Positions 14,737-25,183 of a stretch of DNA of 45,632 nucleotides are shown piece after piece. The translations under genes were made by a program, and so were the position numbers. How positions within the stretch are numbered: position 1 is the first letter of the stretch; every line of letters starts with the position of its first letter. Origin of the DNA: Rhodoglobus sp. GTDB taxonomy: Bacteria; Actinomycetota; Actinomycetes; Actinomycetales; Microbacteriaceae. The stretch lies in assembly GCA_025463515.1 (NCBI GenBank), contig JAODAQ010000036.1, positions 1 to 45,632 of the forward strand. Direction: 5' to 3'. Below the pieces are notes generated by a model, which was not told the origin of the DNA, made no database searches, and saw only the letters and a program-made list of their open reading frames with translations.

Positions 14737-16098
14737 ATGCCACGGCTCTTCGGCACAGACGGCGTACGGGGGCTCGCCAATGGCGAGCTCACCGTCGACC
14801 TCGCACTCAGCCTTGCCCAGGCGGCAGCAGTCGTCCTGGGCAAGGGCCGGGTGGCCGACGGTCGTCGCGCCTCGGGCCGTCGCCCGATCGCTGTCATCGG
14901 CCGCGACCCGCGCATCTCCGGTGAGTTCCTCGGCGCCGCGGTCGCGGCGGGGCTGGCCAGCTCCGGCGTTGACGTGTACGACGCGGGCGTCATCCCGACC
15001 CCCGGCCTCGCGTTCCTCGTGGGCGATTTCAAAGCCGACCTCGGCGTGATGATCTCGGCCTCGCACAATCCGGCGCCCGACAACGGCATCAAGTTCTTCG
15101 CCTCCGGCGGCACGAAGCTCCCCGACGAGGTCGAGGACCGGATCGAAGCGGCCATCGCCGAGCCGAGCCTCGCCCCGAAGGGCGGCGACGTCGGCCGCAT
15201 CCGCCGGTTCTCGGACGCCGAGGACCGCTACATCGTGCACCTGCTCTCGACGCTGCCGAACCGCCTCGACGGCCTGCACGTCGTGCTCGACTGCGCGCAC
15301 GGTGCCGCCGCCGGGGTCTCGCCCCAGGTCTTCACGGATGCCGGCGCCAAAGTCACAGTCATCGGCGCCGACCCCGACGGCATCAACATCAACGACGGCG
15401 TGGGGTCCACCCACCTCGAGCCGCTCCAGGCCGCAGTCATCGCCCACGGAGCGGACATCGGCATCGCGCACGACGGCGACGCCGACCGCTGCCTCGCGGT
15501 CGACGCGCAGGGCAACGTCATCGACGGCGACCAGATCATGGCCATCCTCGCGGTCTCGATGGCGGAGCGCGGCGTCCTCGCCGACCGCACCCTCGTCGCG
15601 ACGGTCATGAGCAACCTCGGCCTCAAGCGCGCGATGGCCGCCCACGACATCTCCGTGATCGACACGGCGGTCGGCGACCGCTACGTGCTCGAGGCTCTCG
15701 GCGAGCACAGCCTGTCCCTCGGCGGCGAGCAGTCCGGCCACGTGATCATGACCAAGTTCGCGACCACCGGCGACGGCATCCTCACCGGCCTGCACCTCGT
15801 GGCGGAGATGGCCCGCACCGGCAGGACGATCGCCGACCTCGCCTCGGTGATGACCGTGTACCCGCAGGTGCTGGTCAACGTGCGCGGGGTCGACCACCAC
15901 TCGCTGCGCTCCGACGCCGTCATCGCCCAGGCCGTGACCGCGGCCGAGGAGGGCCTCGGCGACACCGGCCGGGTGCTCCTGCGCCCCTCGGGCACCGAGC
16001 CCATGGTCCGCGTGATGGTCGAGGCCGAGCACCAGGACGAGGCCGACCGCATCGCCCACTCGCTCGCCGACACCGTGCGCGAGCGACTCGGCGCCTGA
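14737..16098 (+). CDS. glmM: Phosphoglucosamine mutase
   Basis: Converts glucosamine-6-phosphate to glucosamine-1-phosphate for UDP-GlcNAc and peptidoglycan synthesis. The 453-residue product starts [14 protein letters not shown], has the phosphoserine loop [17 protein letters not shown] (S109), the metal-binding DGDADRC, the sugar-binding GGEQSGH and the C-terminal phosphate-binding [12 protein letters not shown]. It follows rpsI by 26 nt without a ribosome site. GlmS, the preceding enzyme of the pathway, is encoded about 9 kb downstream, beyond the accessory region. Confidence 0.96.
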
Positions 16099-16121
16099 CG
16101 CGCACCGCTACCCGCCGGAAC

Positions 16122-16138
16122 TGAGCAATGATTGCTCA
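16122..16138. promoter_or_regulatory. Perfect 17-bp palindrome upstream of the globin gene (putative operator)
   Basis: TGAGCAATGATTGCTCA is a perfect palindrome with one central base, extended by C and G to 19 bp at 16121-16139. It is 51 nt before the globin GTG. Related 17-mers precede both surface-protein genes (19252-19268 and 22773-22789). Confidence 0.6.
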
Positions 16139-16189
16139 GGTGACCACGACTGCCCGCTGCGATCCTGAAGGCGACGAAAGGGTGCGACA

Positions 16190-16543
16190 GTGACGATCTA
16201 CGACCAGATCGGCGGCCAGCCGGTGATCAAGACGGCGACGACCGTCTTCTACGGCCGTGTGACGGGCGACGACGCCCTGACCCAGTGGTTCGGCGGGGTC
16301 GACATCTCGCGCCTGCGCGCCCACCAGCGCGCCTTCCTCGCTGCGGCGCTCGACGGCCCCCAGCTCTTCACGGGGCTCGACCTCGGCGAGGCGCACTCCG
16401 CGATGGCCATCACCGACGACGCCTTCACGCGCGTCGTCGCGCACCTCGTCACGACGCTCCAAGACCTCGGGGTCGCGGACGCGATCCTCACCGAGGTGGA
16501 GCTGCGCCTCGAGATCCTGCGCGCCCAGATCGTGACGGCCTAG
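16190..16543 (+). CDS. Truncated haemoglobin, group 1 (GlbN-like)
   Basis: A 117-residue single-domain heme protein of the 2-over-2 globin family. Members bind oxygen and often detoxify nitric oxide. Visible hallmarks are the N-terminal TIYDQIGGQP, the B-helix VFYGRV with Tyr21 at the B10-like position, the AHQRAFLAAALDGP E-helix and the proximal histidine H69 in LGEAHSAMAITDDAF. It starts with GTG at 16190 preceded by GAAAGGG. Its stop overlaps the convergent LuxR-type gene by 4 nt. It is the first gene after glmM in the accessory region. Confidence 0.88.
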   Translation: MTIYDQIGGQPVIKTATTVFYGRVTGDDALTQWFGGVDISRLRAHQRAFLAAALDGPQLFTGLDLGEAHSAMAITDDAFTRVVAHLVTTLQDLGVADAILTEVELRLEILRAQIVTA

Positions 16544-19161
16544 CGCCCGCTCAGCTCGCTGCGGCCCCGGATGCCCAGCTTGGCGTAGCTCGACTGCAGG
16601 TGGTTGTCCACCGTGCGCGGCGAGAGGAACAGCTTCTCGGCGATCTCGATGCTGCTGAGGCCCTGCGCCGCCAGCCCGCTCACCTCGCGCTCGCGCTTGG
16701 TGAGCTGCTGCGCGGTGTCGAGGAACTGCAGGAGCGGGGTCGCCGCTCCTTCGCAGAGCGTCGCAAGGGCGTCTGCGCGATTCTGGAGGGCCGCGGCATC
16801 CCGGCCCCGCTCGGCCTTGCGGGCGACGCCGGCCGCCGACGCCATGGCCTCGGCGGCGAACAGCAGCTGCCCGAGCGCCTCCCAGCGCTCGGAGATCGTG
16901 ACGAGCGCCTCCACGGTCGGCTCGGCCTCGGCCCGCACGTGTGCGGACTGCAGGTCGATGAGCGGCGACTCGCCCTCGTTGCCGAGGACCACGAGTGCGG
17001 GCATCGCGAGGGCGGCTCCGCCGAGGCGCGCAGCGCCGTGCAGGAGGGATGACGCGAGCACGCGGTGACCGCGGCGCGCGACAGCCTCCGCCCGCTCGAT
17101 GATGATCGGGATCGCGGACTGGTCGCCCTGCACCGCGGCAACCCACTGCACGGCGAGTGTGGCCACAGAGCTGTTCTCCACGTAGCCGGGCGCCATGGCG
17201 CCTGTCACCTCGGTGGCCTCGGCCGTGCGGCCCTGCCAGGCGAGCGCGAGGGCCAGCCAGGCCATGCCCTGGTCGCGGTAGGAGATCGGTCCACGGGCCT
17301 GGGCGCCGCTGACCACGTCGCGGAACCAGCGCGCGGCAGTATCGAGCTTGCCGAGCGCGAGCGCGCAGCGGCCGAGCAGCAGCTCGTCGTAGCGCACGGC
17401 GAGCTCGTCGTCGTGCTCCATGCCGTCGTGCAGCGAGGCGAGCGCCAGGGTGCGGCACTCCTCGACGTAGCCCGACTGGATGAGCGTCGTGGAGAGCACC
17501 ATCTGCGCGCGCCGCACCGCGAACACCGGCAGCGGGTCGTTCGTGGCGTAGGCGACGGCCTCCCGCGCAGCAGCGATCGACGCCTCGGCGCGGCCGAGCG
17601 CGGCCAGTGGCAGGGCGGTCGACATCGCGAGGATGGCGGTGCGCGCGATCTCGGAGTCGTGCTGCGGCCGCGCGGTGAGCAGCTGCTCGGCCGCGAGCTC
17701 GGCCTCCTCGAGGTTCAGTAGGAGCACGGCGCGCGAGAGGGCGAGCGAGCTGGCGAGGGAGGGGTGCTCCGACTCCACCTGGTCGAGCAGGTCGATTCCC
17801 TTGCGGTTGCCGAGCAGCTCGCCCGCGTAGGTGCTCGCGCGGGCGGTGGCGATCAGGCCGGTGAGGCGCTCGGCGGTCGGATCCTGCACATCCGCCGCCG
17901 CGGCCCGCTCGAGCAGCTCGAGGGCTACCGAGTTGCGGCCCATGGTCCACTGCGCCTCGCCCTGGAGGAAGAGCATCTCTGCCGCGGGCGCCCCCGCGAG
18001 GAGGGCGGCGGCCGCGAGCCTGGCCACGGCCTGGTGGTCCTGTGCGAGGAGGGCGAGGTGGGCGGCGCGCGCGAGCAGGCCGGGGTCGCTGGGCTCGCCC
18101 GCGTCCAGGCGCCAGACCGCGACGCGCAGCTCGTCCTCCTGCGACATCGGCCGGGCGGCGAGGATGTCGGCCTGGTCGAGCAGGTTGTCGACGATCGTGA
18201 GGCGCGAGAGGGATGCGCGGACCGCCGCCACGTACTGCGGGTGGCCGAGCGACACGAGCAGCCTGTCGCCGACGACCTCGACGAGGCCGGACTTCTCGAG
18301 GGCAATGACGCGCTTGCGGGCATCCTCGAATCTCAGGTCCGACAGCGCGAGCGGCTGGCACACCGCGAGGCGCTCGACGATCGACCGGTCGACGGGGTCG
18401 AGGTGCTGCATGCGCGACCGGATGAGGTCGTGGAGCGCGGGGGTGCCGATCGGCTCGCCCACGAGCTGCCAGACGCCCTCCGCCTCGACGAGCTGGTTCT
18501 CCTCGAGGGCGCCCAGCACGAGCTCGCGCAGGAAGAGCGGGTTTCCGCCGGACATCGCGTGCAGGTCGGCGGCGGTCCGGTGGGCGATCCGGCCATGGAG
18601 TACCTGGCCGAGCACCGCCTCGTAGCCCGCGACATCGAGGGGCGGGACATCCACGCGCAGGGCGGTGCTGCTCGTCCACATGGAGAGGATCGCGTCGGGC
18701 AGCGGGTCGCCGTTGCGCACGGTCGCAATCAGCCGGGCAGCACCGGCGGCGAGCAACTGGGTGACGACCGCGAGCGAGAGCGAGTCGAGCAGCGAGAGGT
18801 CGTCGATCACGATCACGACGCGGCGGCCGGCGGCGCGGGTCTCGACAGCCCGGCGCACCTGCTCGAACAGCACGACGGAGTCGCGCGAGGCGGCCTGCAG
18901 GTCGATGGGCTCGCGCGCGAACGCCGGGGCGAGCGCGCCGAGCGGGATCGCCGACATGGTCTCGCTCGCAACGATCGGGATCGGCAGCCAGCCGTCAGCC
19001 TCGAGGATGGCGGCGGCCTCGGCGGCGAGCCGGGTCTTGCCGACACCGGAGGGGCCGCACAGGATCACGACGGATGCCGCGGGGGACCGCAGCGTCGCAG
19101 TGATGCGGTCGAGCTGCGCACCTCTGCCGACCAGCGGCCACGCGGACTGGAGCTCGCTCAT
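16540..19161 (-). CDS. Large LuxR-family ATPase transcriptional regulator (LAL/MalT-like)
   Basis: An 873-residue regulator. The N-terminal AAA-type ATPase domain has a Walker A motif GPSGVGKT at residues 36-43 and a Walker B-like VVIVIDDLSLLDSL near residue 115. A long Ala/Leu-rich helical region, probably TPR-like repeats, fills about 300-800. The C-terminal LuxR HTH is clear: LTKREREVSGLAAQGLSSIE then SPRTVDNHLQSSYAKLGI. Such proteins usually sense a ligand or partner through the ATPase/TPR part. It is divergent from the first surface-protein gene and convergent with the globin gene, so it is the natural candidate regulator of this block. GAGAGG precedes the ATG. Confidence 0.9.
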   Translation of the reverse strand: MSELQSAWPLVGRGAQLDRITATLRSPAASVVILCGPSGVGKTRLAAEAAAILEADGWLPIPIVASETMSAIPLGALAPAFAREPIDLQAASRDSVVLFEQVRRAVETRAAGRRVVIVIDDLSLLDSLSLAVVTQLLAAGAARLIATVRNGDPLPDAILSMWTSSTALRVDVPPLDVAGYEAVLGQVLHGRIAHRTAADLHAMSGGNPLFLRELVLGALEENQLVEAEGVWQLVGEPIGTPALHDLIRSRMQHLDPVDRSIVERLAVCQPLALSDLRFEDARKRVIALEKSGLVEVVGDRLLVSLGHPQYVAAVRASLSRLTIVDNLLDQADILAARPMSQEDELRVAVWRLDAGEPSDPGLLARAAHLALLAQDHQAVARLAAAALLAGAPAAEMLFLQGEAQWTMGRNSVALELLERAAAADVQDPTAERLTGLIATARASTYAGELLGNRKGIDLLDQVESEHPSLASSLALSRAVLLLNLEEAELAAEQLLTARPQHDSEIARTAILAMSTALPLAALGRAEASIAAAREAVAYATNDPLPVFAVRRAQMVLSTTLIQSGYVEECRTLALASLHDGMEHDDELAVRYDELLLGRCALALGKLDTAARWFRDVVSGAQARGPISYRDQGMAWLALALAWQGRTAEATEVTGAMAPGYVENSSVATLAVQWVAAVQGDQSAIPIIIERAEAVARRGHRVLASSLLHGAARLGGAALAMPALVVLGNEGESPLIDLQSAHVRAEAEPTVEALVTISERWEALGQLLFAAEAMASAAGVARKAERGRDAAALQNRADALATLCEGAATPLLQFLDTAQQLTKREREVSGLAAQGLSSIEIAEKLFLSPRTVDNHLQSSYAKLGIRGRSELSGR

Positions 19162-19229
19162 CGCCGCCTCTCGAAGACGCGGGGCGTCGGATGGCCCCGG
19201 ATGTGAGAAAGCTTACCGTTTTGCGGGAC

Positions 19230-19268
19230 TGAGTAATGGGCACTGAGTAGTTGAGTAGTCGCTGCCCA
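19230..19268. promoter_or_regulatory. Operator-like cluster upstream of the first surface-protein gene
   Basis: Half-sites of the form TGRGYA start at 19230, 19237, 19244 and 19252, about 7 bp apart (TGAGTAA, TGGGCAC, TGAGTAG, TGAGTAG). The last forms the 17-mer TGAGTAGTCGCTGCCCA (19252-19268), related to the sites at 16122 and 22773. TGGGCA (19237) and TGCCCA (19263) are also inverted arms. It lies in the gap shared with the divergent LuxR-type gene. Confidence 0.55.
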
Positions 19269-19304
19269 TCCGGGATGGCCCGTGCTCGCCGATTCTGTAA
19301 TCAC

Positions 19305-19317
19305 GCCGAAAAACGGC
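19305..19317 (+). other. Small 5'-UTR hairpin of the first surface-protein gene
   Basis: GCCG (19305-19308) and CGGC (19314-19317) enclose a loop of five A. The matching position before the second surface gene has GGCG and CGCC around AGAAA, so base pairs change but pairing is kept. It is 3 nt after CTGTAAT, which is conserved between the two upstream regions. Confidence 0.45.
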
Positions 19318-19344
19318 ACAACTTACTGACTCGAAGGACATCTC

Positions 19345-20805
19345 ATGAACAGCACGTGCAAGCTTGCCAGCGTCGGCGCAGTGGCCCTTGGGCTCACCGC
19401 ATTCGGACTCGTCGGAGCGACAGCGGCCAACGCCGCCGGAGTCGCACCGGTGGGCGCCGACGACTACTACTCGATCGCCCAGGGCGGCACCGTCACCGTG
19501 GCGGCCCCCGGCATCCTTGCGAACGACACCGACCCGGAGGGCGACGCGCTTCATGTCGGCAACTCGTTCGGGTACAACGGCGCCGACTTCGTCCAGGTGA
19601 ACTTGGACGGCTCTTTCCAGTTCACGCCGAGCCCCAACTTCTACGGGGAGGCGAGCTTCGCCTACTACCCCGCCGACGACCTGAGCCTCGGAGCGCAGGT
19701 CACCGTGCACATCACCGTGACCCCGACCGTCCCGAACGCCCCCGTCGTGCTCGTCGCCGCCGACGACCTCTACTCCACGATGCAGGACACCGCTCTCACG
19801 GTGCCGGCGTCCGCTGGGCTTCTCGCCAACGATTCGGGCCCCGGGTTCCTCTACGCCGCGAACGGGCCGGCGGTGCAGTCGGGCCAGATCGTCATCAACC
19901 AGGACGGCAGCTTCACGTACACGCCGCCGGCGGGCTTCAGCGGGTCGACGACGTTCGGCTACCGCACCACGGACGGCCTCACCTTCAGCAACGACGCCAT
20001 GGTGACGATCACCGTGACGTCCTCCGTGGTGGTTCCGCCCGCGCCGCTGGTAGCGGGCGACGACATGTACGCCGCAACGAAGGACACGGTGCTCACGGTT
20101 CCGGCGGCCTCCGGGCTGCTCGTCAACGACACGATGCCCGCCACCGTCTACGACGTCACCGGCGGGGGATCGACCCAGGTCGCGGCTGACGGCAGCTTCG
20201 TCTACACGCCGCCGGCCGGATTCGTGGGCACGAAGACCTTCCAGTACCGCACCACGGACGGCGCGCAATTCAGCAACTTCGCAACGATCACCATCGTCGT
20301 GAGCGGCGCCGCCGTGCCGCCGGTCGGCGTCCCGCCGACCGCGAACCCGGATCAGTACGCCACCGCTCAAGACACGGCGCTCATGATCGACGCGGCCAGC
20401 GGCCTGCTCGCGAACGACTCGTTCCCCGCGGGTGCCGTGATCGACATCGACGACGTCTCCGGCGAGATCGTCGCCCAGCTCGACGGCAGCTTCGTCTACA
20501 CCCCTGTCGCGGGGTTCTCGGGCTCCAAGGAGTTCAACTACCGCATGTCCGACGGCACGGCCCTGAGTGCGTGGGCGCACGTGACCATCACGGTCGCTCC
20601 CGCAGCGGGCCTCCCCGGTGGCGGGCTCGTTCCGACCGTCCCGACGATCCCGGGCGGCACCACGTCCACCACCGATCTCCCCACCCTCGCCTACACCGGC
20701 GGCACGGACGACGTCTCGACCTGGCTCTCGGCACCCGCGGCGGCCCTCATCGGCATCGGGGGCCTCGGCCTCTGGTACTCGCGCCGCCGCGCACAGCTCT
20801 CCTAA
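19345..20805 (+). CDS. LAYTG-anchored cell-surface protein with four bacterial Ig-like repeats
   Basis: A 486-residue secreted protein. Residues 1-30 are a signal peptide ending ANA-AG. Four Ig/cadherin-like repeats (about 36-126, 137-225, 237-319, 331-418) each show the pattern DxYxTxxDT, SGLLANDS, DGSFxYTPxAGF and a final VTITV strand, resembling the Big_9 family. A Pro/Gly/Thr linker leads to LAYTG at 448-452, a hydrophobic segment (459-478) and RRR, that is, a sortase anchoring signal of the LAxTG type used by class E sortases. No sortase gene is in the window. GAAGGA lies 6 nt before the ATG. The function is probably adhesion or surface structure; the ligand is unknown. Confidence 0.85.
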   Translation: MNSTCKLASVGAVALGLTAFGLVGATAANAAGVAPVGADDYYSIAQGGTVTVAAPGILANDTDPEGDALHVGNSFGYNGADFVQVNLDGSFQFTPSPNFYGEASFAYYPADDLSLGAQVTVHITVTPTVPNAPVVLVAADDLYSTMQDTALTVPASAGLLANDSGPGFLYAANGPAVQSGQIVINQDGSFTYTPPAGFSGSTTFGYRTTDGLTFSNDAMVTITVTSSVVVPPAPLVAGDDMYAATKDTVLTVPAASGLLVNDTMPATVYDVTGGGSTQVAADGSFVYTPPAGFVGTKTFQYRTTDGAQFSNFATITIVVSGAAVPPVGVPPTANPDQYATAQDTALMIDAASGLLANDSFPAGAVIDIDDVSGEIVAQLDGSFVYTPVAGFSGSKEFNYRMSDGTALSAWAHVTITVAPAAGLPGGGLVPTVPTIPGGTTSTTDLPTLAYTGGTDDVSTWLSAPAAALIGIGGLGLWYSRRRAQLS

Positions 20806-20844
20806 TCGCACCACCTACCCACACCCAACAGAAAGAAGCACGAA

Positions 20845-21213
20845 ATGAACCTCCTCAAGTCGATCAAAGACATGGGCGCCATGATGAACGCGGCACCCGA
20901 CCTCATCGAGTCCGCCAACCGCCTCGCAGAGAACGCGAAGGTGCAGCAGGCCCAGGCCATGGCACCCGCCGCGGTCGTCGAGCCCTCCGCCGAGGCGCTC
21001 GCACCGATCGCCGGCGTCGACCTCGCGGTCTACGCCCGGGTCTCCAAGGGCATCGCCGCCTACGGCTACGACGCCGCCAAGCTGCCGGTCGTGGCGTCCG
21101 CCTACGGCGTCTCCGCTGCCAACTGGGCCATCGCCCAGACCGGCTGGGCCGCGCGCATCCAGAACGACGCGGCTGTCGGCGCGAAGTTCAATCAGCTCTA
21201 CGCGGGCGCCTGA
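20845..21213 (+). CDS. Small helical protein of unknown function
   Basis: A 122-residue protein I do not recognise with confidence. The N-terminus (MNLLKSIKDMGAMMNAAPDL) is amphipathic, followed by an Ala/Gln/Pro linker (about 35-52) and a compact C-terminal helical domain from about 55: IAGVDLAVYARVSKGIAAYG, then ASAYGVSAANWAIAQTGWAA and FNQLYAGA. The C-terminal pattern recalls small uncharacterised actinobacterial domain proteins (DUF6620-like), but that is a weak impression. No signal peptide or membrane segment. It starts 39 nt after the surface protein with AGAAAGAAG upstream, and is followed 2 nt later by another small gene, so the three probably form one operon. Confidence 0.7.
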   Translation: MNLLKSIKDMGAMMNAAPDLIESANRLAENAKVQQAQAMAPAAVVEPSAEALAPIAGVDLAVYARVSKGIAAYGYDAAKLPVVASAYGVSAANWAIAQTGWAARIQNDAAVGAKFNQLYAGA

Positions 21214-21215
21214 TC

Positions 21216-21611
21216 ATGGGCTTCCTCGACAGCTACTTCAAGCTCACGTCGATGGCTGACGAGATGAGCGAGAAGTCCGACGTGGGCGCGAGCATGGCCA
21301 CCATGCAGTCCAAGCTCGACTCGCTCAACGCGACAATGGCACCGCCCGTCGTGGCCGACCCGGCCACGCGGCAGGATGCCACGGCCACCGTGACCGCCTC
21401 GCGCCCCAGCGGCGCGCAGGTGAACGGCGCGATGGTTACCGAGTTGGAGCTCCTCGTCATGCTGCAGGGCGGCATCCCGGTGCCGGTGAAGCAGACGACG
21501 CTGGTCCCGCCGGCAGATCTCGGCCGCATCCACGTCGGGGCCCGCCTCGCCGTGACGCTCGACCCGGCCGTGCCCGCCACGCTCGTCATCGACTGGACGC
21601 GCGCGGCCTGA
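21216..21611 (+). CDS. Small protein with C-terminal beta-rich domain
   Basis: A 131-residue protein without a recognised family. The N-terminus is helical (MGFLDSYFKLTSMADEMSEK); the C-terminal half (about 55-131) is a beta-rich domain with the pattern LVPPADLGRIHVGARLAVTL then DPAVPATLVIDWTRAA. The ending is nearly the same as in the 81-residue protein at 23809-24054 (LAVTLDP.RP.TLAIDWTRAA). The ATG at 21216 follows the upstream stop by 2 nt and has no ribosome site, so translation is probably coupled. A terminator follows directly. The domain resembles a module widespread in small actinobacterial proteins, with no known activity. Confidence 0.75.
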   Translation: MGFLDSYFKLTSMADEMSEKSDVGASMATMQSKLDSLNATMAPPVVADPATRQDATATVTASRPSGAQVNGAMVTELELLVMLQGGIPVPVKQTTLVPPADLGRIHVGARLAVTLDPAVPATLVIDWTRAA

Positions 21612-21618
21612 CAACCGC

Positions 21619-21654
21619 GAAGGCCGGCCACCCCGAGAGGGGTGACCGGCCTTC
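21619..21654 (+). terminator. Terminator after the first surface-protein operon
   Basis: GAAGGCCGG (21619-21627) pairs with CCGGCCTTC (21646-21654), continued by CACCCC and GGGGTG with one C/A mismatch and a GAGA loop at 21635-21638, then CGTTATT. The next gene's -10 (TATTCT, 21658) begins just after the stem. Confidence 0.8.
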
Positions 21655-21657
21655 CGT

Positions 21658-21663
21658 TATTCT
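21658..21663 (+). promoter_or_regulatory. Putative leaderless -10 of the 358-aa membrane protein gene
   Basis: TATTCT ends 6 nt before the GTG at 21670. Its -35 region would fall inside the right arm of the terminator. Confidence 0.45.
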
Positions 21664-21669
21664 GGGGCC

Positions 21670-22746
21670 GTGATCCTGAGAATCCTGACGAGAGTCGCGG
21701 CGGGGGTCGCCCTCGGCGGCGTCATCGGCAACATCGTGACCGGCGACTGGATCTACTCGATCGTCTGGAGCGTCGCCCTCTGCGCCGTCATCCTCCTCGG
21801 GCTCCTCTCCGGACTTCGCGGCGCGCGCACGCTGAATGTCGGCTACGCGCTGGCCAGGGTCGAGACCGTGCAGCGGGCGGGAGAGGGCACTGCAGCCGCT
21901 CAGCCGATCGTGGCGCGGCTGACCGTCGCTCCCGCGGCGACCGCCCCCTACGCCACGACCCTCCGCGCTGACCTCCCCGTCGACCAACTGCGCGCCCTCA
22001 CTCCCGGTGCGATCATCGTCGTGTCGCGCCCGTCGCCGGTGAAGCCGGATGTCGCGCTCGAACCGCACCCGCCGGCGGAGTGGGCCGCCCGCGCCGCCGC
22101 AGCCCGGCTCGACCCGTCGCTGATCCCGCCCGCGTCGCAGGTGGGTGATCGCATCAAGCCGATCAGCCGCGGGCCCGCCTTCCGCGCGGTCTCGATCGTG
22201 ATCATCGCGGTCGTCGCTGCGGCAACGCTCGTCCCCGCGTACGGCAGCATCGCGCGGAACGTCGAGAACGTCGCCGCGGGGGACTGGAACGGCAACAACC
22301 TCGTCACCGGCCGGTACCAGCAGCTCGCGGTCGACGAGCTCGTCGCGGTCGCGGGCACCACGATGTGCACCGACGTGAGCTTCTACGACAGCTACGTGAT
22401 CGCCGAGTGCCTCACCCGGCCCGGCGCCGACACCACCGACGAGTACCAGTGGCGGTACGGACGAGCGTTCCGGGAGGGGCCTGCGCTCATCCAGTCCACC
22501 GAGCTGGAGGACGAGCTCTTCGACGTCTCGGGGCTCGACTTCGCCCAGGTCGCGGTCTCCGTGAAGGCCGGGATCGCGGCATCCGGCCTCACCCTCACCT
22601 CCGGGCCCTACGCGTGGGTGGCCCGCGACTTCGATGGCGGCGGGCCGGTCATCCATGTCAGTTTCGGCGACGACTACCGGGACGCGAGCCTCGACTACTC
22701 GTTCGACGGCGAGGAGCTCTCCCGGAGCGGGAGCGCGTTCGAGTAG
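21670..22746 (+). CDS. Membrane protein with embedded beta-rich domain and exported C-terminal domain
   Basis: A 358-residue protein of unknown function. Predicted membrane segments lie at about 7-23, 27-48 and 172-190. Between the second and third is a beta-rich segment (about 77-131; PYATTLRADLPVDQLRALTP and GAIIVVSRPSPVKPDVALE) with the same plan as the small proteins at 21216 and 23809: a Pro-containing turn, then L..L.PG..I.V...P..P..V.L. The C-terminal 160 residues, probably outside the cell, are acidic and contain two cysteines (TTMCTDVSF and VIAECLTRP) that could pair. It starts with GTG at 21670 without a ribosome site. It lies between the two surface-protein genes. Confidence 0.75.
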   Translation: MILRILTRVAAGVALGGVIGNIVTGDWIYSIVWSVALCAVILLGLLSGLRGARTLNVGYALARVETVQRAGEGTAAAQPIVARLTVAPAATAPYATTLRADLPVDQLRALTPGAIIVVSRPSPVKPDVALEPHPPAEWAARAAAARLDPSLIPPASQVGDRIKPISRGPAFRAVSIVIIAVVAAATLVPAYGSIARNVENVAAGDWNGNNLVTGRYQQLAVDELVAVAGTTMCTDVSFYDSYVIAECLTRPGADTTDEYQWRYGRAFREGPALIQSTELEDELFDVSGLDFAQVAVSVKAGIAASGLTLTSGPYAWVARDFDGGGPVIHVSFGDDYRDASLDYSFDGEELSRSGSAFE

Positions 22747-22764
22747 GAACTAGGTAATGCCACC

Positions 22765-22789
22765 CGGGCAGTTGAGCAATCACTGCCCA
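22765..22789. promoter_or_regulatory. Operator-like palindrome upstream of the second surface-protein gene
   Basis: GGGCAGT (22766-22772) and ACTGCCC (22782-22788) are perfect inverted arms around TGAGCAATC. Read as a 17-mer (22773-22789) it is TGAGCAATCACTGCCCA, related to the globin and first surface-gene sites. Together with CCATCCG it forms a 24-nt block conserved with 19249-19272. Confidence 0.6.
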
Positions 22790-22823
22790 TCCGCTGTGCT
22801 GCGCGCCGCGGGAATCTGTAACC

Positions 22824-22836
22824 GGCGAGAAACGCC
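22824..22836 (+). other. Small 5'-UTR hairpin of the second surface-protein gene
   Basis: GGCG (22824-22827) and CGCC (22833-22836) enclose AGAAA. It occupies the same place as the GCCG/CGGC hairpin at 19305-19317, shortly after a conserved CTGTAAY. Confidence 0.45.
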
Positions 22837-22862
22837 GAACACTTCCCAGCAAAGGACACAGC

Positions 22863-23738
22863 ATGAACCTCATCAAGACCAGCATCGCCGGCCTCGCCAT
22901 CGCGGCCGCCGTCTCCCTGCCCCTCGTGGGCACGACCGCCGCCTTCGCGGGCGACGCCACCTTCCCGCCCACCGCCGTCACGGACAACTACTCGACGATG
23001 CAGGACACCCAGCTCGTCGTCGACGCGGCCTCCGGCCTGCTGGCCAATGACAGCAGCGGCGGCAACTCCGGCCTCGCGGTCAACGGCGTCACCGCCGGCG
23101 TCGGCGGAAACGCGGTCGCCTCGCTCGACGGAAGCTTCGTCTTCACGCCGGATGCCGGGTTCGTGGGCACCGTGCACCTCATCTACAGCGACGTCGCGGG
23201 CGGAATGTCCAGCAACTTCGCCGACATCTTCATCGTCGTGACCGCCGCCCCCACGCCGCTGCCGGTCGCCTACGCGGACAGCTACTCCACCCCGCAGGAC
23301 ACCCCGCTCGTCGTCGACATCGCGTCCGGCCTCCTCGCCAACGACACGGACGTCTGGCAGATGTTCACCCAGGACAACTCCGTGGGCCTAATGGCGATGA
23401 ACGCCGACGGCGACTTCACCTTCACGCCCCCGGCAGGCTTCGTGGGCACGGTCACCTTCAACTACAGCGCCAAGGACTTCAACTTCCACGTGAGCAACAG
23501 CGCCGTCGTGACCATCGAGGTCACGCCTGCCGTAATCTCCGTCATCCCGAGCAACCCGATCCCCGGCAACCCGGGCAACCCCGGCAGCTCCGACGACGGC
23601 ACTGACGGCCAGCTCGAGACCCTGGCGTACACGGGAACCGACGACGTCACCGTGTGGCTCGTCGCCCCGGCTCTCGCGCTGCTCGCCATCGGCGGCATCG
23701 GCATCTGGTTCGCGCGCCGCCGCGCGGTTCAGCAGTAG
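22863..23738 (+). CDS. LAYTG-anchored cell-surface protein with two bacterial Ig-like repeats
   Basis: A 291-residue paralogue of the protein at 19345. Signal peptide 1-29 (ending AFA-G), two Ig-like repeats (about 37-127 and 136-221) with YSTMQDT or YSTPQDT, SGLLAND and FTP.AGFVGTV, then a Pro/Gly/Asn linker (NPIPGNPGNPGSSDDGTDGQ) and LAYTG at 254-258, a hydrophobic segment (263-282) and ARRR. It has half the number of repeats of the first protein. AAAGGA lies 6 nt before the ATG, the same spacing as in the paralogue. Likely anchored by a class E sortase encoded elsewhere. Confidence 0.85.
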   Translation: MNLIKTSIAGLAIAAAVSLPLVGTTAAFAGDATFPPTAVTDNYSTMQDTQLVVDAASGLLANDSSGGNSGLAVNGVTAGVGGNAVASLDGSFVFTPDAGFVGTVHLIYSDVAGGMSSNFADIFIVVTAAPTPLPVAYADSYSTPQDTPLVVDIASGLLANDTDVWQMFTQDNSVGLMAMNADGDFTFTPPAGFVGTVTFNYSAKDFNFHVSNSAVVTIEVTPAVISVIPSNPIPGNPGNPGSSDDGTDGQLETLAYTGTDDVTVWLVAPALALLAIGGIGIWFARRRAVQQ

Positions 23739-23759
23739 TCCACCACCACCACCACCGCT

Positions 23760-23785
23760 GGGCCCCGTCCGACCGGACGGGGCCC
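23760..23785 (+). terminator. Terminator-like palindrome after the second surface-protein gene
   Basis: GGGCCCCGTCCG (23760-23771) and CGGACGGGGCCC (23774-23785) are perfectly complementary, followed by TTACC. A ribosome site and small gene follow 12 nt later, so it may act as a partial terminator that lowers expression of the downstream gene. A CCA trinucleotide run precedes it. Confidence 0.7.
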
Positions 23786-23808
23786 TTACCCCTGGGAAGG
23801 AGCGCCCC

Positions 23809-24054
23809 GTGAACCGCGTCGAAGCCCACTGCATCGTGCTGACGTCGCGCCTCGCGGCGCAGTTCGCCGGCGGCTCGGCGCTCGAGCTCGAGCTCGCGGT
23901 GACGCTGCCCCGGGGCTTCGGGATGCCCGTCGCCCACGCCTCGGTCGTGCCGCGCGCCGACCGCGCGCGGGTGCGGCCCGGGTCAGCCCTCGCCGTGACC
24001 CTCGACCCCGAGCGGCCGGACACCCTCGCGATCGACTGGACGCGCGCCGCCTGA
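23809..24054 (+). CDS. Small beta-rich domain protein (paralogue of 21216-21611)
   Basis: An 81-residue protein consisting almost only of the beta-rich domain seen in the C-terminal half of the 131-residue protein. Both end with LAVTLDP, a short variable stretch, then T-L-x-IDWTRAA, and share a preceding V-P-x-A-D block. The GTG at 23809 has a strong AAGGAG (23797-23802) 6 nt upstream, which supports expression. It has no signal peptide. It follows the second surface protein as its paralogue follows the first, so the pair surface protein plus beta-domain protein is duplicated. Function unknown. Confidence 0.75.
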   Translation: MNRVEAHCIVLTSRLAAQFAGGSALELELAVTLPRGFGMPVAHASVVPRADRARVRPGSALAVTLDPERPDTLAIDWTRAA

Positions 24055-24097
24055 GCCGCGCGCCGCCTGAGCCGCGCCCCGGTTGCGCGGCGCCCCG

Positions 24098-24146
24098 GTT
24101 GCGCTACAGCTTTCCCGCCGCGCGCCACGAATTCCTGTAGCGCAAC
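24098..24146. repeat. Inverted repeat between convergent genes, with small direct repeats
   Basis: GTTGCGCTACAG (24098-24109) and CTGTAGCGCAAC (24135-24146) are perfect 12-bp arms with a 25-nt loop. Nearby are short direct repeats: CCCCGGTTGCGC twice (24077 and 24094), the GCGCCGCCTGAGCCGCG unit around 24042-24076, and a GGGCGG.CTGACCCG unit twice (24182-24223). The 181-bp gap separates the small beta-domain gene from convergent coaA. Confidence 0.7.
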
Positions 24147-24235
24147 GCAAAACGTGTAGCGCGAGCGCCCCCCGACCGTGGGGGCGGGCTGACCCGCGCC
24201 GCGACCGCGGGGCGGACTGACCCGGATGCCGCGGC

Positions 24236-25183
24236 TCAGGTCTTGCGCAGCAGCACGCTCGAGACGGCGTGATCGGCGCCCTTGCGCAGCACGAGGTCGG
24301 CGCGGGGACGCGTCGGGACGATGTTCTGCACCAGGTTCGGCTCGTTGATCGCCTGCCAGATGCCGCGGGCGCGGGCACGGGCCTCGTCCTCGGTCAGGGA
24401 CGCGAACCGGTGGAAGTAGGACTGCGGGTTGGTGAACGCCCCGCGCTGCAGCCGCAGGAAGCGCTCCTCGTACCAGCGCGCGATGTCGGCGGTGCGGGCA
24501 TCCACGTAGATGGAGAAGTCGAACAGGTCGCTCACGGCGAGGCTGCGGCCCGGGGCCGCGGGCTGGAGGACGTTGAGCCCCTCCACGATGAGAACGTCGG
24601 GCGCGTTCACCACGATCTCGGCGTCGGGCACGATGTCGTACGCGAGGTGCGAGTAGAAGGGAGCGCGCACTTCGCGGGCGCCGCTCTTCACCTTGCTGAC
24701 GAAGCGCAGCAGCGCGCGGCGGTCGTACGACTCGGGGAAGCCCTTGCGCTCCATGAGCCCGCGGCGCTCGAGCTCCGCGTTCGGGAACAGGAACCCGTCC
24801 GTCGTCACCAGCTCGACCCGGGGGGTGCCCTCCCAGCGCCCGAGGAGCTCGCGCAGCAGCCGCGCGACCGTCGACTTGCCCACCGCTACCGAGCCCGCCA
24901 CACCGATCACGAACGGCGTGTGCGGCGAGCGCTCGCCGAGGAACGAGGATGTCGCGGCGTGCAGGTTCCGCGCGCCCTCCGCGTACAGCGACAGCAGCCG
25001 GCTGAGCGGGAGGTACACCGCAGCGACCTCGCCGAGGTCGAGCTCGTCGCCGAGGCCGCGCAGCTCGATGACCTCGGTAGCGGTCAGCGGAGCGGTGACG
25101 GTGGGGGCCAGCGCCGCCCAATCGGCCCGGTCCAACTCGATGAACGGGGACTCGTGACCGTGGGTCGAGGCGGGGTCGGACAT
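24236..25183 (-). CDS. coaA: Type I pantothenate kinase
   Basis: Phosphorylates pantothenate, the first step of CoA synthesis. The 315-residue product has the P-loop GSVAVGKS at about 97-104, [20 protein letters not shown], the pantothenate-binding region [29 protein letters not shown] and the ending [20 protein letters not shown]. The ATG at 25183 is chosen because it gives the normal N-terminus; an open frame continues far upstream antisense to glmS but is not credible. TAGGCT lies 7 nt before the ATG, so the mRNA is probably leaderless. The glmM-coaA-glmS neighbourhood is common in actinobacteria. Confidence 0.94.

Follow-up and report, generated by a model that had tools for sequence, protein, structure and literature searches.

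A LuxR-family ATPase regulator and a truncated haemoglobin between glmM and coaA: probable core of an actinobacterial regulon that reaches the cell surface

Actinobacteria commonly encode large ATP-binding regulators of the LuxR family (LALs), but for few of these is the operator or the signal defined. We describe here one that is encoded in a stretch of Rhodoglobus sp. DNA 45,632 nucleotides long (contig JAODAQ010000036.1 of assembly GCA_025463515.1; hereafter, ‘the window’), where ~8.1 kb separates glmM (14737–16098) from coaA (24236–25183). The block between these genes encodes a truncated haemoglobin (trHb), the LAL, a surface protein (SurfA), two small proteins (sm122 and sm131), a protein with hydrophobic stretches (mem358), a second surface protein (SurfB) and a further small protein (sm81). 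Like AbsR2, MalT and SCO6993, the LAL joins an N-terminal P-loop ATPase to a C-terminal GerE helix–turn–helix (HTH).

Several features of the locus have counterparts elsewhere. LuxR-type activation proceeds from the lux box, a partial palindrome near −42. The operators discussed below are also partial palindromes near −42 of a proposed transcription start, but here the regulator is an ATPase, a second half-site lies 22 bp upstream, and the operator sequence is different. Globin genes come under nitric oxide (NO)-responsive control by NsrR, DevSR and similar regulators; the pairing of regulator with globin target recurs here, but the regulator is of another class and surface genes appear to belong to the same regulon. 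The globin resembles the group I protein HbN (1idr) over 103 residues, Tyr/Gln/His pocket included, and differs in that its gene is linked to a LAL and an operator. SurfA and SurfB share repeats and a sorting signal with sortase-anchored Big_9/cadherin-like proteins (tandem-95, CshA-like repeats, LAXTG); they differ in being short (2–4 repeats), in lying beside a LAL, and in being paired with beta-domain proteins of the sm131/sm81 type.

SCO6993 is reported to bind palindromes and its own promoter (PMC9628970); the sites printed there have no consensus in common, and its authors were unable to predict one. Its targets are antibiotic genes, whereas those proposed for the window’s LAL are genes for a globin and for surface proteins, and the operator is clear. 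Searched by term, PMC9628970 gave no occurrence of ‘globin’, and PMC3466318 none of globin, sortase or surface protein. No LAL–globin or LAL–globin–surface regulon is named among the papers listed in searches of one open-access library, outside which many subscription papers lie. The system is one of known parts in a new combination.

We put at roughly 0.7 the probability that the block forms the chromosomal centre of a regulon activated by the LAL, one that couples haem-globin chemistry (probably that of NO or O2) to remodelling of the cell surface. Gene linkage, operator, promoter spacing and co-occurrence, on which this reading is built, emerge from comparison of sequences, as does all of the evidence below. 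Three samples were compared: 27 Salinibacterium genomes (‘genus’), 398 genomes of 85 genera (‘family’) and 396 genomes (‘phylum’). They are subsets, with wide stretches taken for chosen matches; p-values ignore kinship, and apparent gene losses in metagenome-assembled genomes may be assembly gaps. Handles beginning with G denote genomes, G000 being the window’s own, and those beginning with L denote loci.

Judged by its domains (Table 1), the regulator is a LuxR-family large ATP-binding protein, a STAND-type ATPase with a LuxR/GerE DNA-binding domain; the latter matches the solved GerE, DevR and NarL domains. Narrower labels fell away. Its scores are far from the curated cut-offs for an AbsR2 equivalog (NF050132; 158.9 bits versus 850) and for MalT (NF003420; 31.3 bits versus 537), and a role for the block in anti-phage defence was dropped, the PADLOC matches being confined to the HTH of two CARF3 models and a weak one to the P-loop. 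The globin scores 64.7 bits against Bac_globin (cut-off 21), and its closest solved relatives—1dlw, 5ab8 (a group 1 GlbN) and 1idr, the HbN of Mycobacterium tuberculosis—place it among the group I truncated haemoglobins. Its His69, Tyr21 and Gln46 fall on HbN positions; we take the first to be the proximal histidine and the other two to be distal residues. Among LAL-linked trHbs generally, the glutamine and histidine are present in 18 of 18 and the tyrosine in 17.

In the window, the 3′ ends of the trHb and LAL genes overlap by 4 nt. A quick IQ-TREE phylogeny of 70 LALs, with SH-aLRT supports only, gathers 23 of them—from Microbacteriaceae, Nocardioides and one further family—into one clade (SH-aLRT 100), leaving 13 controls of the same genus or family and 34 others. 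A trHb gene lies within 3 kb of 21 of the 23 clade LALs but of none of the controls (Fisher 4.5e-8), near which no globin, Big_9 or sm122/sm131 gene was found either. LAL distances correlate with those of the adjacent trHbs (r 0.765, n 18, 0 of 5000 permutations). Judged from predicted gene ends, the two genes are mostly tail to tail, with a gap of at most ~40 nt or a small overlap; L043, where they stand apart, and L240/L241, where they run in the same direction, are the exceptions. Within the genus, 6 of 27 genomes have a LAL ortholog at E ≤ 1e-60, and it is these six that have a globin of at least 54% identity (p 3.4e-6, kinship ignored), the 54% line having been set after the list was seen, and 9 of the 27 having some trHb at E ≤ 1e-12. 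At E ≤ 1e-50, 14 of 398 family genomes, from 8 of 85 genera, have the LAL. By these comparisons the core of the block is LAL plus trHb, not random cargo; that possibility, and that of a mobile island, we rejected for the core because the pair stays together in different genera and at different addresses, and because targets unlinked to it have retained the operator. At L095:6651–12480, one trHb gene is flanked by two LAL genes of the clade and is shared by both.

An earlier note on this DNA, prepared from the sequence alone, had drawn attention to shared operator-like sites, and these bore scrutiny. The pattern of operators O2 and O3 has two matches in the window (19251 and 22772) versus none in 100 shuffles, and the perfect palindrome O1 at 16121 makes a third site. 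Because such patterns were written from the sites themselves, the genus, matrix and distant-locus scans serve as the independent tests. Exact matches to TGAGYARTNRYTRCYCA number 12 at 9 places in the 27 genus genomes, palindromes being counted twice, versus 2 for the reversed control; all 12 fall in G000, G014, G019 and G024, four of the six LAL-bearing genomes, and 11 are at the LAL locus. A matrix trained on six globin sites was run over the 200 bp upstream of 281 predicted genes from 19 loci, five of them training loci. With three exceptions (L089, L091 and L092), its 40 best scores precede trHb, LAL, surface or sm122 genes, or genes that share that intergenic stretch. Scores of at least 13 precede 8 of 12 further LAL-linked trHb genes versus none of 8 unlinked ones. 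Upstream regions beat all 200 of their shuffles for 8 of 11 sm122 genes and 6 of 13 surface genes, and those of three further surface genes were beaten by one or two. Degenerate sites that the strict matrix missed (L043 trHb; L044 and L045 Surf) were recovered, post hoc, by a broader matrix together with the −10 rule described next.

Operators are followed at a set distance by a −10-like hexamer. Among 35 promoters (15 trHb, 7 surface, 3 lipoprotein, 10 sm122), xANNNT stands 21 nt past the 19-bp operator in 29, and 20 or 22 nt past it in the other six; at most three have it at any offset outside 20–22. The 21-nt rule was seen by eye before this count was made; a scan of 31 sites, mostly from distant loci, is the fairer test. 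It places xANNNT at 21–22 nt on one side in 24 of the 31, although it includes two of the 35 and counts matches on either side, for any gene direction. Read from both sides (62 readings), offset 21 occurs 18 times, offset 22 six times, and other offsets 0–4 times. This spacing puts the operator centre near −42 of the proposed start, and the operator itself where a −35 would stand. An auxiliary half-site precedes the operator by 18–20 nt in 17 of 20 non-globin promoters and in 0 of 15 globin promoters.

Sites near an LAL, scoring at least 13, accompany 18 of the 23 clade LALs, 19 of the 34 others and 2 of the 13 controls. The operator is therefore probably common to a group of LALs broader than the trHb clade. 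The two controls, L046 and L055, which lack a globin, each have one operator-like site nearby, scoring 20.3. In L240 and L241, from two genomes of another family, the upstream portion of the trHb reading frame contains two palindromes spaced 41–42 nt, and a further two, spaced 69 nt, lie downstream of the LAL.

The operator is also found away from the LAL locus. A Septum_form lipoprotein gene (4.6e-9) at G000:C60, unlinked to the block, has 66–73% matches only in G014, G019 and G003; the operator (≤2 mismatches) lies upstream of it in 4 of 4 block-bearing genomes versus 0 of the 26 paralogue loci examined, a subset of the paralogues. The genes for sm122 and sm131, paired at 11 of 11 family loci, carry the operator on contigs other than that of the LAL (L163, L165, L167, L168 and L170), and carry it in L166, whose genome has no LAL at E ≤ 1e-50; at L169 it is weak. 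In the first six of these loci it lies 76–104 nt before the start. On whether the genes occur independently in relatives, a matter raised in the earlier note, the picture is divided: 9 of the 11 sm122-bearing family genomes also have an LAL, and pairs on other contigs mostly keep the operator, whereas in the phylum, where 9 of 396 genomes have sm122, L179 alone of eight loci outside the window’s genome has both LAL and good operator in the stretch examined. Because the other seven have not, the pair must also occur without the system.

By eye and by pattern, both surface proteins have LAYTG, a hydrophobic stretch and an RRR tail; signal peptides were judged by eye, and the strep_LAETG domain of SurfB scores 27.5 bits, just below the 30-bit cut-off. 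By these features they are predicted sortase substrates of the LAXTG type. The earlier note’s claim that a unit of surface protein plus beta-domain protein is duplicated was borne out, sm81 sharing 49% identity with the C-terminal half of sm131. The structure predicted for sm131 combines a helix with a beta domain at a mean pLDDT of 71.7, and its best solved match has E 0.15; that of sm122 has a C-terminal helical part (block means 93–96 over residues 51–120) and matches no solved structure at E ≤ 10. For neither model was there a match to a solved fold good enough to be of use, and assigning function by fold was abandoned. A GC-rich hairpin lies between SurfB and sm81, at 23760–23785; sm81 may therefore need read-through or a start of its own. 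In Nocardioides (L108), six Big_9 stretches occur in the neighbour divergent from the LAL, and 17 RTX-type stretches in the one beside trHb; in L095, L096, L098 and L100 a surface gene is followed by one for a small protein of no known family. A tblastn scan of relatives’ loci found nothing that matches mem358, which was dropped as a member; it is not in the block of G014, G019 or G003, and probably lies outside the system.

In the mechanism we envisage, LAL, on a signal, would bind the 19-bp partial palindromes and activate promoters that have a −10 box and no recognisable −35. The position of the operator is what suggests activation, and the globin is what favours NO or O2 as the signal. The first target would be trHb, through the most perfect palindrome; the second and third, SurfA–sm122–sm131 and SurfB(–sm81), through imperfect palindromes aided by the half-site 22 bp upstream; and the fourth, the unlinked lipoprotein. 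The globin would remove or handle NO, O2 or related reactive species, the sortase-anchored cadherin-like proteins would alter the cell surface, perhaps in adhesion, and sm122, sm131 and sm81 might be intracellular helpers. A perfect operator could then give an early globin response, and half-site-assisted operators a later, surface one.

A number of observations sit awkwardly with all this. L091 and L092, of one genus, have the LAL at glmM–coaA with neither trHb nor operator; 5 of the 23 clade LALs have no nearby operator scoring 13, while two controls do. With one mismatch allowed, the pattern matches the window’s own genome six times, and so does its reversed control. Four of the 13 surface upstream regions failed the first matrix, and the sites of L043 SurfB and L098 Surf were not recovered even by the broader matrix and −10 rule. 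The palindromes of two full-length-globin promoters, L244 and L247, lack the 21-nt spacing towards the globin; the scan that recognised no −35 had only 0.1 chance matches to expect, so that its zero says little; and L097 trHb has alanine at the tyrosine position. G386, though it has both operator and sm122, shows no LAL at E ≤ 1e-50, G266 has sm122 without LAL, and seven of the eight phylum loci lack LAL or good operator. Membership is uneven, too: surface genes lie near 13 of the 23 clade LALs and sm122 near 7, versus 21 for the globin, so that by this comparison surface genes are the variable part of the system and the globin its near-constant one. The earlier note’s proposal of one functional system rather than random cargo is supported in part: for the LAL and globin, found in the same six genomes, but not for mem358. 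It is also too narrow, and one member, the lipoprotein, lies outside the block.

Might the surface genes, then, be mere neighbours that gained similar sites, or hitchhikers in a variable locus, with the LAL–globin pair alone as the unit? No Big_9 protein is encoded within 4 kb of 10 of the 23 clade LALs, and mem358 looks like cargo. We nonetheless think this improbable, for the operator precedes surface genes with its 21–22-nt spacing in Salinibacterium, in L095 and L096, and in Nocardioides L108, and the unlinked lipoprotein and sm122 pairs keep it. Just as improbable, to our minds, is that LAL represses its targets, the operators blocking RNA polymerase. LuxR-type activators sit with their centre near −42, as the operator does here, an extra half-site two turns upstream fits recruitment, and no −35 was recognised, by what was a weak scan; yet the operator does sit where a −35 would be, and the Streptomyces LAL SCO6993 is reported to act as a repressor (PMC9628970).

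Somewhat less unlikely, though unlikely still, is that the signal is not a gas: LAL might sense a small molecule—a polyamine, a sugar or a cell-wall fragment—with the globin one target among others. MalT-type LALs bind sugars, and other LALs sense inducers; glmM and glmS make cell-wall precursors; an agmatinase-like gene of the arginase family adjoins the pair in L044 and L045 (Arginase 4.5e-85 and 3.4e-84); and methyltransferase-like genes lie near it in L044, L045, L093, L094, L097 and L099, and beside the lipoprotein site in G000. These neighbours do not follow the pair to glmM–coaA, however, whereas the globin is its constant partner, and the polyamine label is weak: one of six scanned methyltransferase-like genes shows Spermine_synth, at 0.0013, below cut-off. 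We marked this alternative down slightly because a spermidine synthase label for these neighbours was not borne out by the domain scan. An activated regulon with a gas-related signal remains the reading we prefer.

The globin may also have a wider part, a suggestion we make tentatively and would not bet on: it could be the detached gas-sensing or signal-cancelling partner of LuxR-ATPases across Actinomycetes, reporting or removing NO or O2 and so setting the output of a shared promoter code, surface remodelling being one output. Such a partner would be truncated in one clade and full-length in lineages nearby, Micromonospora among them. Six of the 34 other LALs have a globin nearby, one truncated and five full-length (L109, L244, L247, L253 and L259), and these five, with the L259 array, support the suggestion. 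In L109:7472–10518 (Micromonospora echinofusca), the LAL gene is followed directly by one for a 144-aa full-length globin (PF00042 3e-13), with a 4-nt overlap between its GTG start and the predicted LAL stop. The array in L259:6137–10213 (G659, same phylum) comprises operator, sm122, sm131, LAL, operator and full-length globin, in series.

The genes that the earlier note named are all present, by open-reading-frame and domain searches, and its statement that glmM often lies close to coaA and glmS in actinobacteria agrees, for coaA, with gene order in the genus. The two, of which coaA was detected in all 27 genomes, are tail-to-tail neighbours in 20, and since their match ends are there 6–243 nt apart, the empty site is known. 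The block or a relative of it occupies this site in G000, G014 (with a single surface gene), G019 and G003 (where LAL has relocated to the coaA end; order is altered and core membership kept). In the remaining three, glmM and coaA are ~1.26 kb (G024) or ~1.0 kb (G006) apart, or glmM is not within 1.5 kb (G021). The ~1.0–1.3 kb in G024 and G006 is non-block sequence; the site may be prone to repeated insertion. The trHb–LAL pair is at glmM–coaA in G000, G014, G019, G003, G088 (L089) and G159 (L090), and elsewhere in others, among them G024 and G021, which have trHb, LAL and surface protein away from this site; G307 (L091) and G344 (L092) have LAL alone there. The pair has a second address, in L044, L045, L093, L094, L097 and L099, beside the methyltransferase-like genes, whose assignment is weak, with arginase-family genes in L044 and L045, and rpoB, by eye, in L045, L093, L094 and L097.

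Table 1. Features of the glmM–coaA block, in window coordinates
Feature	Position	Strand	Basis
Operator O1, perfect palindrome CTGAGCAATGATTGCTCAG upstream of globin	16121..16139	no strand	Similar sites before trHb in L041, L042, L044, L045, L090
−10-like hexamer GATCCT, 21 nt past O1	16161..16166	+	Promoter comparison
trHb, group I truncated haemoglobin, 117 aa	16190..16543	+	PF01152 (Bac_globin) 1.2e-17; HbN 1idr match 3.5e-19
LAL, LuxR-family large ATPase regulator, 873 aa	16540..19161	-	AAA_16, residues 9–139, 6.5e-15; GerE, residues 819–870, 6.7e-15; Walker A (P-loop) GPSGVGKT
Auxiliary half-site TGAGTAATG, 22 bp 5′ of O2 core	19230..19238	+	Sequence; pattern count
Operator O2 TTGAGTAGTCGCTGCCCAT before SurfA, in LAL–SurfA gap	19251..19269	+	Pattern and promoter comparison
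−10-like hexamer GATTCT, 21 nt past O2	19291..19296	+	Promoter comparison
SurfA, 4 Big_9/cadherin-like domains, LAYTG sorting signal	19345..20805	+	Big_9 6.3e-50
sm122, small, largely helical, first of conserved pair	20845..21213	+	No Pfam family above cut-off
sm131, N-terminal helix and C-terminal beta domain, second of pair	21216..21611	+	No Pfam family
Terminator-like hairpin after SurfA–sm122–sm131 unit	21620..21653	+	Sequence; hairpin scan lists part, 21637–21654
mem358, 358-aa open reading frame with hydrophobic stretches	21670..22746	+	No Pfam or NCBIfam match
Auxiliary half-site TAGGTAATG, 22 bp 5′ of O3 core	22751..22759	+	Sequence; pattern count
Operator O3 TTGAGCAATCACTGCCCAT before SurfB	22772..22790	+	Pattern and promoter comparison
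−10-like hexamer GAATCT, 21 nt past O3	22812..22817	+	Promoter comparison
SurfB, 2 Big_9/cadherin-like domains, LAYTG sorting signal	22863..23738	+	Big_9 3.2e-17
sm81, stand-alone beta domain	23809..24054	+	Homologous to C-terminal half of sm131

One LAL clade thus gains a concrete operator, a spacing rule, a list of targets and a near-constant globin partner, and with these defined, direct tests of where it binds, what it controls and what it senses come within reach in an environmental genus. If the link to a gas is true, haem-globin chemistry and the cell surface would be connected through a single regulator, and what a set of actinobacterial truncated globins does would become open to test as well.

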